Assembly (NCBI GenBank): GCA_030446545.1 | Contig: JAUJNB010000005.1 | Span: 65,519 to 129,518, forward strand | Origin: Acidimicrobiales bacterium | Lineage (GTDB): Bacteria > Actinomycetota > Acidimicrobiia > Acidimicrobiales > CADCSY01 | Direction: 5' to 3' | Length of the DNA: 64,000 nucleotides | In this document: piece after piece, positions 2,927 through 16,462 of the stretch | How positions within the stretch are numbered: the stretch's first letter is position 1 | How the letters are laid out: every line of letters begins with the position of its first letter | Program-made: the position numbers and the translations under genes | The notes under the pieces: generated by a model | The model's database searches: none | What the model was told of the DNA's origin: nothing | Seen by the model: the letters and a program-made list of their open reading frames with translations, nothing else

Positions 2927-3634
2927 TCAGGAGATCGGCGGGCCGCCCTCGAACACCACGGTGACGCCGGTGAAGCCGAGGGACGACAACATGGACTCCA
3001 ACATGGCCCGGGTGTTGGTCTCGGCCCGTCCCACCAGGCCGGCGTCGACCGCCGCCGCCGCCAGCTTCTCCTCGGCCAACAGGTACAGCTCGCGGTCGCC
3101 GGTGGGGTTGTCGGAGAAGACGGCGCCGGCCCGGTCGAGCAGCCCCCGGTCCCGGGACACCACGTAGCTGCGCTCGGGGTCGATCCTCGGCTCCGACAGC
3201 CGGGCGGAAGGCAGGCGCACCGTGACCGAGTTGTCCTCGGCCACCTCGATCGCTCCCTCGGCCAGACCGGCGAAGTCCACGGAGGCGTCCACGGTTCCCC
3301 CGGCCAGGAACACCGTGCGTTCGCCGCGGATGAACGACGGCACGAAGCTCGTGTCGTCCTCCACGTCGAGGATCACCTGGAACTGCCCGGTGGCCGCTCG
3401 GTACTCGGCCAGGTCCTCGATGGCCTGGAGCAGGGCGGGCTGGGTCCGGTCGACCGTCTCTTCGGCGAAGGGGTTGCCGAACGACGGAAGCCACCCGGCC
3501 ACCTTGGAGATGCCCAGGCCGAGGACCAGCACCACCAGCACCACCACCACCTGGCCGAGCTTGGAGGGCAGGGAACCCGTGCGCTCGCTCCTCCGGGCCC
3601 GCAGCGGCGGCCGGGACTGCCGCAGTTGCATCAT
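2927..3634 (-). CDS. DUF4230-like membrane-anchored protein
   Basis: A 235-residue protein with a short basic N-terminus, one transmembrane helix at about residues 25-45 (QVVVVLVVLVLGLGISKVAG) and an extracytoplasmic domain resembling DUF4230. The pattern is LLQAIEDLAEYRAATGQFQVILDVEDD followed by beta strands such as SVTVRLPSA and a C-terminal GVTVVFEG. The function of the family is unknown. An upstream in-frame start would overlap disA; the ATG at 3634, preceded by GAAGAG, gives the conserved length and leaves 37 bases after disA. It is probably co-transcribed with disA. Confidence 0.72.
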   Translation of the reverse strand: MMQLRQSRPPLRARRSERTGSLPSKLGQVVVVLVVLVLGLGISKVAGWLPSFGNPFAEETVDRTQPALLQAIEDLAEYRAATGQFQVILDVEDDTSFVPSFIRGERTVFLAGGTVDASVDFAGLAEGAIEVAEDNSVTVRLPSARLSEPRIDPERSYVVSRDRGLLDRAGAVFSDNPTGDRELYLLAEEKLAAAAVDAGLVGRAETNTRAMLESMLSSLGFTGVTVVFEGGPPIS

Positions 3635-7700: not shown

Positions 7701-8792
7701 ATGAGCGGCCAGCGGGCGGCGGTGGAGGCCATGGGCGTCTCGGTGGCCGCCGGCGTGCCCGTGTTGTTGTGGGGGGCTCCGGGCACGGGCAAGACCTCGG
7801 CCATCCGGGCCATGGCCGACGCCGCCGGCTGGCCCTGCGAGACCGTCATCGCCGCCATCCGCGAGCCGTCGGACTTCTCCGGCCTGCCCGTGGTGGTCGA
7901 CGGCGTCGTCCACTTCGCCCCGCCCCGGTGGGCCGAGCGCCTGGCCGAGGCCGGCCGGGGGCTGCTCTTCCTCGACGAGATCTCCACCGCCCCGCCGGCC
8001 GTGCAGGCCGCCCTGCTGCGGGTGGTGCTCGAACGGGTGGTGGGCGACCTCAACCTCCCCGACGACGTGGTCGTCGTAGCCGCGGCCAACCCCCCCGAGC
8101 AGGCGGCCGACGGCTGGGACCTGTCCGCTCCCCTGGCCAACCGCTTCTGCCACCTCGACTGGGAGGTCGACGCCGCCACCTTCGCCCAGGGTCTGGTGGG
8201 CGGGTTTCCGGCCGCCACCATCCCGGCCCTGAGCCCCGGATGGGACGGCGACGCCCTGGCCCAGACCCGGGCCTTGGTGGCCGCCTTCGTCACCGTGCGC
8301 CCCGGCCTGACCTGTGCCCTGCCCACCGATGCGGCCCGGGCCGGTCGGGGCTGGCCCAGCCCCCGCACCTGGGACATGGCCGCCCAGTTGTTGGCCGGGG
8401 CCGAGGCCACCGGGGCCTCCACCGAGGCGGTCACGGCCCTGATCACCGGTGCCCTCGGTCCCGGCGCCGGCACCGAGTTTCTTCTGTGGCGCTCGGAGAT
8501 GGACCTGCCCGACCCGGAGGCGGTGCTGGCCGACCCCCTGCGCTTCGTCGTGCCCGAGCGGGGTGACCGGGCCTACGCCGCCCTCTCGGCGGTGGCGGCC
8601 GCGGTGGCCGCCCAACCCACCGTCGAACGCTGGCGGGCGGGGTGGCAGGTGGTGGCCCGGGTGGGCGAGCACGCGCCGGACGTGGCCGCCGTGGCCGCCC
8701 GCACCCTGGCCCAGTGCCGGCCCGCTTCGGCGGTGGCGCCCCCCGAGGTCAAGCTGTTCGCCCCCCTGCTCAAGGAGGCCGGACTGCTGTGA
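7701..8792 (+). CDS. MoxR-type AAA+ ATPase
   Basis: A 363-residue AAA+ ATPase. Walker A is GAPGTGKT at residues 25-32, Walker B is LLFLDEI at about 88-94, and sensor 1 is the VVVAAANPPE strand. The C-terminal third is a helical lid with no other domain. MoxR-type ATPases act as chaperones or remodelers and usually pair with a VWA protein, which follows here at 9187. The ATG at 7701 is the first start after the divergent lipoprotein gene. The target is unknown. Confidence 0.9.
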   Translation: MSGQRAAVEAMGVSVAAGVPVLLWGAPGTGKTSAIRAMADAAGWPCETVIAAIREPSDFSGLPVVVDGVVHFAPPRWAERLAEAGRGLLFLDEISTAPPAVQAALLRVVLERVVGDLNLPDDVVVVAAANPPEQAADGWDLSAPLANRFCHLDWEVDAATFAQGLVGGFPAATIPALSPGWDGDALAQTRALVAAFVTVRPGLTCALPTDAARAGRGWPSPRTWDMAAQLLAGAEATGASTEAVTALITGALGPGAGTEFLLWRSEMDLPDPEAVLADPLRFVVPERGDRAYAALSAVAAAVAAQPTVERWRAGWQVVARVGEHAPDVAAVAARTLAQCRPASAVAPPEVKLFAPLLKEAGLL

Positions 8793-8793
8793 G

Positions 8794-8932
8794 GGTGACC
8801 GGGTCCCGCTACCCGCCTCGCCCGCCGGACGGGTCCTGTCACCCTCCTTGCCCGCCGGACGGGTCCTGTCACCCTCCTTGCCCGCCGGCCGGGTCCTGTC
8901 GCCCTCCTGCCCGCCGACCGGGTCCTGTCACC
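8794..8932. repeat. tandem array of about 30-bp units
   Basis: Directly after the MoxR stop a 30-base unit is repeated head to tail. Exact copies lie at 8821-8850 and 8851-8880, a copy with one base lost at 8881-8909, and partial or degenerate copies on each side (8794-8820, 8910-8932). The core word is CGGGTCCTGTCACC. There is no spacer variation as in CRISPR. The 30-base period keeps a reading frame but the 29-base unit breaks it, which argues against coding. Confidence 0.8.
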
Positions 8933-8982
8933 GAGCGGGACCCCTCCCACGGACGCCTCGCTGCGCTCGGGCCCGTGGGCCC

Positions 8983-9143
8983 CTCCCCTCGGCGCCACCC
9001 GGTCGGCTCCCCTCGGCGCCACCCGGTTGGCTCCCCTCGGCGGTCGGCTCCCCTCGGCGCCACCTGGTCGGCTCCCCTCGGTGGCACCTGGTCGGCTCCC
9101 TGAGCCACCACCCGTCCGGCTCCCTGGCCCACCACCCGTCCGG
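8983..9143. repeat. tandem array of 24-bp units
   Basis: Six 24-base units stand head to tail at 8983-9006, 9007-9030, 9048-9071, 9072-9095, 9096-9119 and 9120-9143, with a 17-base deleted unit at 9031-9047. The leading core is CTCCCCTCGGCGCCACC, and the last two copies diverge. With the preceding 30-bp array this fills most of the 394-base gap between the MoxR and VWA genes. No gene, promoter or start signal stands out in the gap apart from the TTG start at its end. Confidence 0.85.
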
Positions 9144-9186
9144 CTCCTTTGGCTAGGGTTCTTGGGCTGTCTGTGGCTGAGTCGAG

Positions 9187-10380
9187 TTGGACCGGGGCAA
9201 GGTGGCGTCGGCCCGGCTGTGGGCCGTGGCCCGTCACCCCTACCTGGCCTCGGCCCTGTTCGCCTCCACCGTGGTGGCCGTCCCCGGCCTCGGCGGGGCC
9301 ACGGTCGACGAGGCCTGGCGCCTCTACCTCGACCCCGAGGTGGTGCAGCGCTGGAGCGTGGCCGAGCTGGGCAGCCTCTTGGTCCACCACACCGGGCACC
9401 TGCTTCGGGACCACGCCGGTCGGGCCCGGGCCCTCGGTCTGAGCCAGGCCGAGTCCGACGACTGGGCCCTGGCCGCCGACGCCGAGATCAACGACGACCT
9501 GTCCCACCCCGACCTGCGCCTGCCCGGCGAGGTGGTCCTGCCCGCCACCCTCGGTTGCGAAGCCGGTCGCCTGGCCGAGGAGTACCTCCACCGGGGGAAC
9601 TTCGACCCACCCGACCACCACGACTGCGGCAGCGGCGCCGACGCCAAGGTGCGGCCGTGGGAGCTGGCCGGCGACGCCGGTGGCGGGGTCCCGGTGGGCG
9701 AGCGGGAGATGCTCCAGTGCACGACGGCCAGCCGGGTGGTCGACTACGCCCGCTCGGGGCGGGGCCGGGTCGCCGCCGGCTGGCAGCGCTGGGCCGCCGA
9801 GGTGCTGGAGCCGACCGTCGACTGGCGCCGGGTGCTGGCCGCCGAGATCCGCAAAGGCATCACCACCGTGGCCGGACGGGCCGACTACAGCTACCGGCGG
9901 CCGTCCCGCCGGGCGGGCACCAGCCCCGGGGTGATCCTGCCCGCCCTGGAGCGTCCGCTGCCCGAGGTGGCGGTGCTGTGCGACACCTCGGGCAGCATGG
10001 ACGGCGAGGCCCTGGCCCGGGTGCTGGCCGAGGTCGAGGGCCTGTTGCGGGGGGTGGGTGTGGGCCGGGCCCGGTTGCGGGTCCTCTCCGGTGACGCGGC
10101 CGTGCACACCGACCGCCGGGTCACCAACGTGGGCCAGATCGACCTGGTGGGGGGCGGGGGCACCGACATGGCTGCCGGCATCGAGGCGGTCGCCCGTCTG
10201 CGGCCCCGCCCATCGGTCCTGGTCGTCCTCACCGACGGGATGACGTCGTGGCCGGCCGAGGCGCCCAAGGCCATGCAGGTCGTGGTGGGGCTGGTGGGCG
10301 CCGAGGTGGGGGCTCGGGGCGGGCAGGTCTGGGCTACCCCGGCGTGGACGAGGGTCGTGCACCTCGATCTCGCCGCCTGA
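9187..10380 (+). CDS. metallopeptidase-like/VWA protein, partner of the MoxR ATPase
   Basis: A 397-residue protein of the DUF2201 type. The N-terminal half resembles a zincin fold, but its motif reads HHTGHLLRDH (residues 67-76), without the Glu of a true HExxH, so peptidase activity is doubtful. The C-terminal half is a VWA-like domain with a MIDAS motif DTSGS at 266-270, GGGGTDM and VLTDG. Such proteins are encoded next to MoxR ATPases and are thought to work with them. The start is taken as TTG 9187, just after an in-frame stop; GTG 9202 is an alternative. The repeat arrays separate it from the ATPase gene. Confidence 0.85.
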   Translation: MDRGKVASARLWAVARHPYLASALFASTVVAVPGLGGATVDEAWRLYLDPEVVQRWSVAELGSLLVHHTGHLLRDHAGRARALGLSQAESDDWALAADAEINDDLSHPDLRLPGEVVLPATLGCEAGRLAEEYLHRGNFDPPDHHDCGSGADAKVRPWELAGDAGGGVPVGEREMLQCTTASRVVDYARSGRGRVAAGWQRWAAEVLEPTVDWRRVLAAEIRKGITTVAGRADYSYRRPSRRAGTSPGVILPALERPLPEVAVLCDTSGSMDGEALARVLAEVEGLLRGVGVGRARLRVLSGDAAVHTDRRVTNVGQIDLVGGGGTDMAAGIEAVARLRPRPSVLVVLTDGMTSWPAEAPKAMQVVVGLVGAEVGARGGQVWATPAWTRVVHLDLAA

Positions 10381-10407
10381 CGGGCCGTCGCCGGGAACGG
10401 GCCGAAG

Positions 10408-11166
10408 GTGAGCCGGCGGTGGTGCGACCGCCTCGACCCCGTGACCGAGCTGGTGGAGTGCAGCGGCGAGCACCACCGCGTGACCTGGCTGCGGGGCAGC
10501 CTGGTGGTCGAGGACCACGACCTCGAGGCCGAGCGGGCCATGAAGGCCCTGGGCGCCGAGACCCCGGCGTGCCTGCGCCTGGTCAAGCAGTGGCGCGAAC
10601 TCCACTCCTGGGCCACGTCGCCCGAGCTCTACGTCCAGATGCGCGACCGATTGGGCCCCGAGCGCATCCTGGGCCCGGGAGCCCTGCGTCAGACCAGCGA
10701 GCTGTCGCTCCTGCTCACCTGGGAACGGGCCTGGCGCACCTCGGCGTACTACGGCGTGGGCCACGAGCGCCTCCTCGAACGCCAGCTGGGTGACCGGGCC
10801 CTGGCCCCCCTGACGGCCCACGTCGACCTGTGGTCCCGGCGTCTCGAGTCCGGCCGCACGCCGTCGGTCGAGGTGAAGCTGGCCCGGCCGGGCCGGGTCC
10901 CCGAAGTCAAGGGCAGCATCGACCGCTTCGGGGCCCGGGCCAGGGTCACCCTCGGGGTGGGCTGGGCCCTCGGGGTGTGGGCGCGCGGCCTCGCCGTGGT
11001 CGACGACGGCTTCGTGGTGGCGCTCGTCCCCACGACCGGAGACCTCGGAGCCAGGGCCATCCGCTGGGAGCGCCAAGGCGACGGCGGGGCCCGTCCCGTG
11101 GTGGCCCCGGCCCGGCTGGGGCGGAGCCCCGACGGGTCGTGGCGCCTCACGTGGGACTGCACCTGA
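10408..11166 (+). CDS. unknown protein linked to the MoxR/VWA pair
   Basis: I do not recognise this 252-residue protein. It has no signal peptide or membrane helix. The first half is helical and rich in Arg and Trp (ERAWRTSAYYGVGHERLLERQLG). The second half looks like beta strands (RARVTLGVGWALGVWARGLAVVDDGFVVALV) ending in SWRLTWDCT. It begins with a GTG 27 bases after the VWA gene and is probably in the same transcript, so a role with the MoxR/VWA complex is likely by context only. Codon use is like that of its neighbours. Confidence 0.7.
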   Translation: MSRRWCDRLDPVTELVECSGEHHRVTWLRGSLVVEDHDLEAERAMKALGAETPACLRLVKQWRELHSWATSPELYVQMRDRLGPERILGPGALRQTSELSLLLTWERAWRTSAYYGVGHERLLERQLGDRALAPLTAHVDLWSRRLESGRTPSVEVKLARPGRVPEVKGSIDRFGARARVTLGVGWALGVWARGLAVVDDGFVVALVPTTGDLGARAIRWERQGDGGARPVVAPARLGRSPDGSWRLTWDCT

Positions 11167-11217
11167 TCCGCCTCCGGTCGGTGTCCGACCCGGTCGGAGA
11201 CTGAGGCACGATGGGGC

Positions 11218-12225
11218 ATGATCACGCCGTCCGGTGAGCCGCCGGCGCTGGCGCCCATGCTGGCGGGGTCCACCGGCCTGCCCGAGAAGACCACGGGGTG
11301 GGTCTTCGAGCCCAAGTGGGACGGTGTCCGAGCCATCGCCCGGGTCTGGGACGGCCAGGTGGCCCTGGCCAGCCGGCTGGGGAACGACGTGACCGCCGGC
11401 TACCCCGAGCTGGCGCGCTTGGGAGTCGGCCTCGAGGGCCGGGCCGTGGTCTTCGACGGCGAGATCGTCGCCTTCGACGACCGAGGACGCCCGAGCTTCG
11501 AGCGCCTTCAGCAGCGCATGCACGTCCGCCACCCGAGCCCCTCGCTGATGGCCCGGGCCCCCGTGCTCTACGTGGTGTTCGACCTGTTGTGGCTGGACGG
11601 GCAGCAGCTCACCGGTGAGGCGTTCACCGAGCGGCGACGACGGCTCGAAGCCTTGCACCCCAAGGGTCCTTCCTGGCAGATCTCCCAGCTGCTGCCCGAA
11701 CCACCCGACGACGAGCTGCTCGTCGCCTGCAACCAGGTCGGGCTCGAGGGATTCGTGGGGAAGTTGGCCGCCGCCCCCTACTCGGTGGGCAAGCGCTCCA
11801 AGTCCTGGACCAAGGTCAAGTGCGTCCGCCAACGGGAGTTCGTGGTGGGCGGGTGGAGCGAGGGATCAGGCGGCCGCACTGGTCGGATCGGGTCGCTCGC
11901 CGTCGGCTGGGTCGATCCCGACGTGCCCGCACCGCCGGGGCATCCCTTGGCGCTGCGATATGCGGGTCAGGTCGGCTCCGGGCTGAACACGTTCCTCCTC
12001 AACCACCTGGGCTCGACCTTCGAGGACCTGGCCTCGTCCACGAGCCCGTTCGTACCCCCGCCTCCCGTCCCGCGCCTGCACTTCGTCCAGCCCAGCCTGG
12101 TCGTCGAGATCATGTTCAACGAAGTGACCCGCGCCGGGGTACTCCGCCAACCCTCGATAAAGGGCCTGCGGGACGACGTCGAGCCCGCCAACGTGGGCTG
12201 GACCGAGGAGCTGGCGGGCGCCTGA
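11218..12225 (+). CDS. ATP-dependent DNA ligase, LigC/LigD ligase-domain type
   Basis: A 335-residue ATP-dependent ligase. The adenylation motif I is EPKWDGVRA with catalytic Lys33. Motif III lies near VVFDLLWLDG, motif IV is EGFVGKL, motif V is SWTKVKC, and an OB-fold domain follows from about residue 205. The size and C-terminal FIxxxVTxxGxLRxPS-like end match the stand-alone ligases related to the LigD ligase domain. With the polymerase gene at 12531 and a Ku remnant between them, this is the ligase part of a bacterial NHEJ locus. A break-sealing role is therefore inferred from family and context. Confidence 0.92.
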   Translation: MITPSGEPPALAPMLAGSTGLPEKTTGWVFEPKWDGVRAIARVWDGQVALASRLGNDVTAGYPELARLGVGLEGRAVVFDGEIVAFDDRGRPSFERLQQRMHVRHPSPSLMARAPVLYVVFDLLWLDGQQLTGEAFTERRRRLEALHPKGPSWQISQLLPEPPDDELLVACNQVGLEGFVGKLAAAPYSVGKRSKSWTKVKCVRQREFVVGGWSEGSGGRTGRIGSLAVGWVDPDVPAPPGHPLALRYAGQVGSGLNTFLLNHLGSTFEDLASSTSPFVPPPPVPRLHFVQPSLVVEIMFNEVTRAGVLRQPSIKGLRDDVEPANVGWTEELAGA

Positions 12226-12285
12226 CCTCCGACCAGCCCACGCAAGCATCACGAGGACATCGAGCTGGGGAGCATTGAGGTTGTA

Positions 12286-12313
12286 GAGCAACCCGGAGGC
12301 TCCACAGTTGCTC
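12286..12313. other. hairpin between ligase and polymerase genes
   Basis: Perfect seven-base arms GAGCAAC (12286-12292) and GTTGCTC (12307-12313) enclose a smaller GGAG/CTCC stem. No T-run follows, so this is not a classical terminator. It may attenuate or mark the end of the ligase transcript. The surrounding gap, 12226-12530, otherwise holds only the Ku remnant. Confidence 0.4.
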
Positions 12314-12441
12314 GTGAGCTGGGGCTGGAGCTCCTGGCAGCTCCGTTCCTCGCCGTGGCTGGCGACGGGGGAGCTGGCGTCGAAGGTCGCCTCAAGGTTT
12401 GAATGGTGTCTCAGGGGCGGGCGAAGGGGAGGCCGCGGGCC

Positions 12442-12516
12442 ATGCCGAGGGCGATCTGGAGCGGGTTGCTCGACTTCGGGCTGGCGAACATCCCGACGGT
12501 CCGTCAGAGCGCGTAG
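12442..12516 (+). pseudogene. 24-codon remnant of a Ku gene
   Basis: From ATG 12442 the frame encodes MPRAIWSGLLDFGLANIP and then VRQSA before a TAG at 12514-12516. Bacterial Ku proteins begin with a very similar run, of the form ARAIWSGxISFGLVNVPV followed by KLYSA. A purine-rich AGGGGAGG lies just upstream as a ribosome binding site. The rest of Ku (normally about 270 residues) is absent; the polymerase frame begins 15 bases later. This is best read as a deleted ku gene that keeps its start region. A chance match is unlikely given the position inside an NHEJ locus. Confidence 0.68.
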
Positions 12517-12530
12517 GGCGGCCGAGACCC

Positions 12531-13457
12531 GTGGCCGCGAAAGGTCGAGAGGCGGTCATCGAGGTGGGGGGCCGCGCCCTCACCTTGTCCAACCTGGAGA
12601 AGGTCCTCTATCCCGCCACCGGGTTCACCAAGGCCGAGGTCCTCGACTACTACGCCCGGGTGGCCCCGGTCCTGCTGGCCCATCTGGCTGATCGGGCCCT
12701 CACGCTGCGACGCTTCCCCGACGGCGTCGGGGGCGGATCGTTCTACGAGAAGAACTGCCCGGGGCACCGGCCCGACTGGGTGGGCGTGCACCGGATCGGC
12801 CTCGAGAGCGGGGGCGGGGGCGAGGCCATCGACTTCTGCCGCATCGACTCGCTGGCCGCCCTCACCTGGGTGGCCAACCTGGCCGCCCTCGAGCTCCACA
12901 CCTCGATGGCCCGCGCCCTCGCTCCCGATGCCCCCACCATGGTGGTGTTCGACCTGGACCCCGGCCCCCCGGCCTCGGTGCTCGACTGCGCCGAGGTGGC
13001 CCGCTCCATCCGGACGGTACTGGTCGACCTCGGCCTCGAGGTCCTGGTCAAGACTTCGGGCTCCAAGGGGCTGCAGGTCTACCTGCCGCTCAACACCCCG
13101 ACCACCTACGCCCGCACCGCCGGCTTGGCCAAGCACCTGGCCCAACTCCTGGAGCACCAGTTCCCCGATCAGGTGGTCAGCCAACAACGGAAGGAGCTCC
13201 GGCGGGGCAAGGTCCTCATCGACTGGAGCCAGAACGCCAGGCACAAGACCACCGTGTGCGTGTACTCGCTGCGGGCCCGGGAGCAACCGACGGCCTCGAC
13301 GCCGGTCACCTGGGACGAGGTCGACGCCGCCTGCCGCCGGGGCGACCCCGAGCTGCTCACCTTCCAGGCCCCGGCCGTGCTCGAGCGCATCGACGCCCTG
13401 GGCGATCTCTTCGGCCCCGCCAACCACCTGGTCCAGGAGCTCCCCGACCTGGGCTAG
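12531..13457 (+). CDS. LigD-type primase-polymerase domain protein
   Basis: A stand-alone polymerase domain of the LigD type (archaeo-eukaryotic primase fold), about 308 residues from GTG 12531. Visible motifs are SNLEKVLYPATGFTKAEVL at the start, the catalytic FDLDPG (DxD), TSGSKGLQVYLPL, and the family stretch KVLIDWSQNARHKTTVCVYS. Such enzymes fill gaps with ribonucleotides during non-homologous end joining. The frame is open further upstream to 12399, but that part is not family-like and covers the Ku remnant in another frame. Ligase and polymerase being separate genes here corresponds to a split LigD. Confidence 0.92.
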   Translation: MAAKGREAVIEVGGRALTLSNLEKVLYPATGFTKAEVLDYYARVAPVLLAHLADRALTLRRFPDGVGGGSFYEKNCPGHRPDWVGVHRIGLESGGGGEAIDFCRIDSLAALTWVANLAALELHTSMARALAPDAPTMVVFDLDPGPPASVLDCAEVARSIRTVLVDLGLEVLVKTSGSKGLQVYLPLNTPTTYARTAGLAKHLAQLLEHQFPDQVVSQQRKELRRGKVLIDWSQNARHKTTVCVYSLRAREQPTASTPVTWDEVDAACRRGDPELLTFQAPAVLERIDALGDLFGPANHLVQELPDLG

Positions 13458-13476
13458 CCGAACCGCCATCCGGCCC

Positions 13477-16072: not shown

Positions 16073-16462
16073 GTGGCCCTCGATCCCCTCGCCCTCCCCG
16101 AAGCGGTGCTGGCCTTCCTGGCCGAGCGCCACCTCGCCAGCCTGACGACGTTGCGAGCCGACGGGACGCCCCATGTGGTGCCCGTCGGTTTCGCGTTCGA
16201 CCCCGGAGAAGCCCTGGTCAGGGTCATCACCAACGCCGGGAGCCAGAAGGCGGCCAACGCCCGCAGGGGCGGCCGGGCCGTGGTGTGCCAGCTCGACGGT
16301 GGCCGGTGGCTCTCGCTCGAGGGCCCCGTGTGCCTGTCGGCCGGGCCCGACCGGGTGGCGGCGGCCGAGACCGCCTACGCCGGCCGCTACCGCCGGCCGA
16401 GCGAGAACCCCGACCGGGTGGCCCTGGAGATCGCCGTGGACCGCGTGCTCGGCCGAGCTTGA
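16073..16462 (+). CDS. PPOX-class (F420-dependent type) flavoprotein
   Basis: A 129-residue split-barrel protein. The pattern LAFLAERHLASLTTLRADGTPHVVPVGF followed by VRVITNAGSQKAANARRGG and VCQLDGGRWLSLEGP matches the small PPOX proteins of actinobacteria, many of which use F420. These reduce diverse substrates or protect against oxidative stress; the substrate here cannot be told. It starts with GTG 16073, 42 bases after the DUF4331 gene, and converges with the VOC gene. Confidence 0.88.
   Translation: MALDPLALPEAVLAFLAERHLASLTTLRADGTPHVVPVGFAFDPGEALVRVITNAGSQKAANARRGGRAVVCQLDGGRWLSLEGPVCLSAGPDRVAAAETAYAGRYRRPSENPDRVALEIAVDRVLGRA

Follow-up and report, generated by a model that had tools for sequence, protein, structure and literature searches.

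Between a LigD-type ligase gene and a LigD-type polymerase gene of an Acidimicrobiales bacterium lies an open frame of only 24 codons that begins like Ku, the end-binding partner of both enzymes. What is this frame, and does its presence mean that end joining (NHEJ) is being lost in this lineage? We addressed these questions in the window, a stretch of 64,000 nucleotides containing the locus, and in the genomes of the species and its relatives.

The 24-codon frame and the polymerase

The frame extends on the forward strand from an ATG at 12442 to a TAG at 12516 and encodes MPRAIWSGLLDFGLANIPTVRQSA. It has retained the Shine-Dalgarno sequence of ku (GGGGAGG, 12426-12432, forward strand), whose pairing with the anti-Shine-Dalgarno sequence (-11.1 kcal/mol) is similar to that of the ku site in G001, a genome of the same genus (-12.1 kcal/mol). 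A profile was derived from 78 other Ku proteins, using their N-termini; with it, this frame scored 30.6 bits (E 1.4e-8), while the runner-up place in the window reached 8.6 bits and the best score in 20 random sequences of 64 kb, generated with the same first-order composition, was 10.9 bits. The sequence-only reading, which had placed here a Ku start with a ribosome site between the two LigD-type genes and expected the peptide to align better than chance, was right on both counts.

The curated model TIGR02772 aligned with the frame over positions 1-17 of its 259 positions, with 13 bits (E 0.05) against the 150 bits required by its cut-off, and a scan of the 24 residues alone with the Pfam Ku model (PF02735) gave no report, the piece being too short. 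A frame of 24 codons that falls below every curated cut-off might resemble Ku by accident, but such a coincidence is virtually impossible and was refuted by the gap between 30.6 bits and the best random score, by the presence of a full ku at the same place in the sister genome and by the match of both ku ends. The same syntenic full-length genes, in G001 and in G003 of the same genus, together with the two matched ends, establish that the frame is homologous to Ku by descent. DNA binding and dimerisation of Ku reside in its core domain (PMC9638933), and because this whole core is absent, the 24-residue product cannot be Ku: to judge by its sequence, the frame is a remnant and not a Ku. We also considered it as an N-terminal extension of the polymerase, which was rejected because it lies in another frame and because conservation of the polymerase start extends to G001.

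The polymerase itself, a LigD-type primase-polymerase of 308 aa (12531-13457, forward strand, GTG start at 12531; TIGR02778, PF21686), is intact. It passes the TIGR02778 cut-off (267 bits for 214.7 required), carries the catalytic DxD as FDLDPG and is 86% identical to its counterpart in G001, with a dN/dS of 0.22. On its 3' side, the segment 13515-16030 holds extra genes for a membrane protein, an ArsR-like regulator (assigned by eye) and a DUF4331 protein; G001 and G003 do not have these genes here, and in both of them the polymerase is followed by DNA matching the gene at 16073.

An in-frame deletion relative to the sister genome

The comparison with sister genomes proposed by the sequence-only reading spoke for a real loss, since a full ku lies exactly between the two genes in G001 and G003. 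In G001 this gene has 312 codons, starting with MPRAIWSGSISFGLVNIP and ending with EAAPEKVRQSA before the stop. Aligned by blastn with the G001 locus (L061), the window matches positions 2626-2692 with its segment 12428-12494 (83.6% identity over 67 bp) and position 3557 onward with the DNA from 12495 onward; the two blocks abut at 12494/12495 in the window, whereas 864 nt separate them in G001. Because the two homologous blocks abut exactly, 864 nt, or 288 codons, are missing in frame, and since 288 is 312 minus 24, the stub corresponds to the first 18 codons of ku (12442-12495), the junction, and the last codons of the gene with its stop (VRQSA-TAG, 12499-12516). The earlier description of a ku that starts, then stops and has lost all the rest was therefore accurate for the start and the missing body, while the residues preceding the stop, and the stop itself, are those of the original C-terminus.

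Both flanks of the deletion are 86% identical to G001 (window 9581-11171 and 12495-13459) and the distances downstream are the same in both genomes, with 14 nt from the stop to the polymerase start and 62 nt from the stop to the LSNLEK-type motif of the polymerase. In G001, an in-frame CCC-G, made up of a proline codon and the G after it, is present at both ends of the missing segment (ATC CCC GTC and GCC CCC GAG), and the deletion may have arisen at these short repeats; as they stand in the same frame, a deletion by microhomology would be in frame by itself.

The stub has also accumulated substitutions. Its residues L9, D11 and A15 are each found in 0 of the 78 Ku proteins compared, and position 11, D in the stub, is S in all 78; with three such residues, the stub has ceased to evolve as a Ku. 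Over the 18 N-terminal codons it differs from G001 by five nonsynonymous and four synonymous changes, against zero and four, respectively, between G001 and G003. These changes fit a relic under relaxed constraint, 18 codons being too few for a firm selection test.

We conclude, with a probability of about 0.9, that the stub is a scar, left in the lineage of this species by a single in-frame internal deletion of approximately 288 codons from an operonic ku (KuB). The ancestor of the genus probably had two Ku proteins, the stand-alone KuA and another one encoded in a lig-ku-pol operon, and since KuA is still present, the operonic copy would have been dispensable, a redundancy that may have permitted its loss. 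The core of ku would then have disappeared while the ribosome site, the first 18 codons, the last codons and the stop stayed in place, which would leave the polymerase its original upstream context, and KuA may now serve the retained ligase and polymerase.

The deletion rests on one assembly, a draft of 2.57 Mb in 44 contigs that is 71% complete, and the genomes closely compared with it are also drafts, as their contig counts show. In a draft of this kind, and with an ancestor carrying two ku paralogues, the ku body could have been dropped during metagenome assembly, yet we consider such an artefact highly improbable: the junction is internal to a contig of 143 kb, the only notable paralogue of the stub in the genome is the N-terminus of KuA (58 bp at 81%), so that there is no long exact repeat to misjoin, and the stub is substituted at positions invariant in Ku, which would not be seen in a misjoined intact gene. 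Joint import of the stub and the ligase from one donor was rejected as well, because the flanks and the C-terminal tail match G001, from the same genus, and because G144, where the ligase has its nearest relative, has a Ku that ends differently (GKQKAS before the stop) and showed no DNA match with the stub.

Compatible with the deletion scar would be a role of the stub as a short translated leader, the in-frame scar preserving the translation of the polymerase by translational coupling. Ribosomes would load at the ku site, end at the ku stop and restart 14 nt further on, at the GTG of the polymerase. Such a role would agree with the keeping of a strong site upstream of the polymerase, whose own ribosome site is weak (-6.3 kcal/mol, against -11.1 for the stub), with a stop-to-start spacing identical to that in G001 and with the in-frame nature of the deletion, but one in three random deletions stays in frame, a single such event is known and both the spacing and the sites are simply inherited; we find this role unlikely. 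That the 24 residues are not a decaying relic but a micro-frame kept for coupling with the polymerase, or for a peptide bearing the Ku C-terminal tail, appears quite unlikely.

End joining in the genome and in the genus

For the sequence-only reading, either the end-binding partner was lost and NHEJ was dying, or another Ku was present elsewhere. Searching the genome decided for the latter: contig C18 encodes a complete Ku (KuA) of 286 aa, which matches TIGR02772 over model positions 1-259 with 330.5 bits, above the curated cut-off, and evolves with a dN/dS of about 0.24-0.26 relative to its orthologues in G001 and in G002, another genome of the same genus. With this full-length protein in the genome, NHEJ is not dying through lack of Ku. 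The genome also carries on contig C41 adjoining PE and Pol domains, apparently in one open frame (a PE-Pol LigD protein), and on contig C43 a Pol gene with a divergent ligase nearby. NHEJ genes are thus present and the pathway, if active, would use KuA.

The stub could still be the first sign that NHEJ as a whole is disappearing from the lineage, as G002 is without ku and polymerase at the locus and 12 of the 45 well-assembled relatives searched gave no Ku match. Against this view stand the full Ku under purifying selection in the genome of the window, the PE-Pol protein, the second Pol gene with its ligase, the intact ligase and polymerase of the locus and the stand-alone Ku also retained in G002, and we judge it extremely improbable. 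Because a complete ku exists elsewhere in the genome, what is seen is a redundant repair gene decaying in the ordinary way and not the loss of end joining.

Four genomes of the genus could be compared at this locus. G001 has lig-ku-pol and the stand-alone Ku, hence both copies; G003 has lig-ku-pol, and no stand-alone Ku was found in this genome, which is 85% complete; the genome of the window has the ligase, the ku scar, the polymerase and the stand-alone Ku; G002 shows the same upstream genes and a ligase followed directly by the DUF4331 gene, with ku and polymerase absent from the locus and the stand-alone Ku kept. Among these four genomes, all of them drafts, the operonic ku was lost only where a stand-alone Ku is present. 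A search for Ku stubs beside LigD-type polymerases at 80 polymerase loci, taken from genome contigs and from the loci of relatives, found one other short Ku frame, in G048, while 34 of the 80 loci had no Ku match, and no remnant either, within the flank examined. In G048 (L024 / L041; C11, 18329-18874), the ku beside the LigD-type polymerase contains one internal TAG, 44 codons in; this is either another ku pseudogene, of independent origin, or an error of sequencing.

Nonconventional NHEJ systems have been described in which the LigD domains are split and Ku is present in several copies, with repeated or secondary losses and transfers (PMC7719229). The locus studied here resembles them in having separate genes for ligase and polymerase on the two sides of ku and differs in that an in-frame deletion has left its ku with the two ends only; a search of that article for the words 'pseudogen' and 'truncated' gave no match. 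Streptomyces species possess an operonic ku by a PolDom gene and stand-alone ku copies, with a copy number that varies among relatives (PMC5124664). This genus likewise has a polymerase-linked and a stand-alone ku in varying number, but its polymerase-linked ku was lost, whereas the polymerase-linked kuA of Streptomyces is almost ubiquitous (PMC5124664). Like pseudogenes and gene remnants in general, the stub has a recognisable start and end, a deleted body and changing invariant residues; unlike them, it still has a start, a ribosome site and a stop that are all in register with the gene downstream. The ku scar, a redundant operonic ku lost by deletion in a modular NHEJ locus, is a further example of a kind already described. 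It changes no principle and is useful for studying the evolution of modular bacterial end joining, as one step of redundant Ku loss is caught within one genus, from the intact lig-ku-pol through the in-frame ku deletion to the ligase-only locus, with the stand-alone Ku found in each of the two genomes from which the operonic ku has gone and the ligase part of the locus apparently exchanged more than once.

The ligase and nearby repeats

The LigD-type ATP-dependent DNA ligase (335 aa, 11218-12225, forward strand; TIGR02779, PF01068 and PF04679) passes the TIGR02779 cut-off (234 bits for 227.75 required) and carries the nucleotidyl-transferase lysine motif KxDG as EPKWDG. It is 76% identical to the ligase of G144, which belongs to another family, and 50% identical to the G001 ligase at the same place. 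In the ligase tree, it pairs with that of G144 (100/100 support); the ligases of G001 and G002 form a pair at another place, and that of G003 sits in a third group, beside further members of the G003 family. The window ligase is, on these sequence comparisons, foreign to the locus, a replaced copy (xenologue) exchanged within a neighbourhood whose flanks and polymerase match G001 at 86%. The presence of three ligase clades across four genomes of one genus suggests repeated exchange of one gene inside a conserved neighbourhood. At 12371-12391 (forward strand), immediately in front of ku, where such a piece would be expected, the segment GAGCTGGCGTCGAAGGTCGCC is identical at 19 of 21 positions to the last codons of the G001 ligase (ELASKVA for ELASRVA in G001), and 0 of 500 shuffles scored as high; this short match is tentatively assigned to the tail of an earlier ligase gene, of which it would be the 3' leftover.

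The spacer between ligase and ku also contains, at 12260-12310, a dispersed palindromic repeat, with the core GGAGCATTGAGGTTGTAGAGCAACC at 12269-12293, also given as GGAGCATTGNGGTTGNNGAGCAACC. It had no match in three genomes of the same genus, and its reversed control pattern gave no match; it has matches on five other contigs of the genome (C11, C24, C30, C34 and C39), and its DNA hairpin is predicted at -11.8 kcal/mol (z -3.96). Further upstream, GC-rich degenerate tandem repeats with CGGCTCCCCTCGG-like units, recognised by eye, occupy 8700-9160, upstream of a VWA-domain gene.
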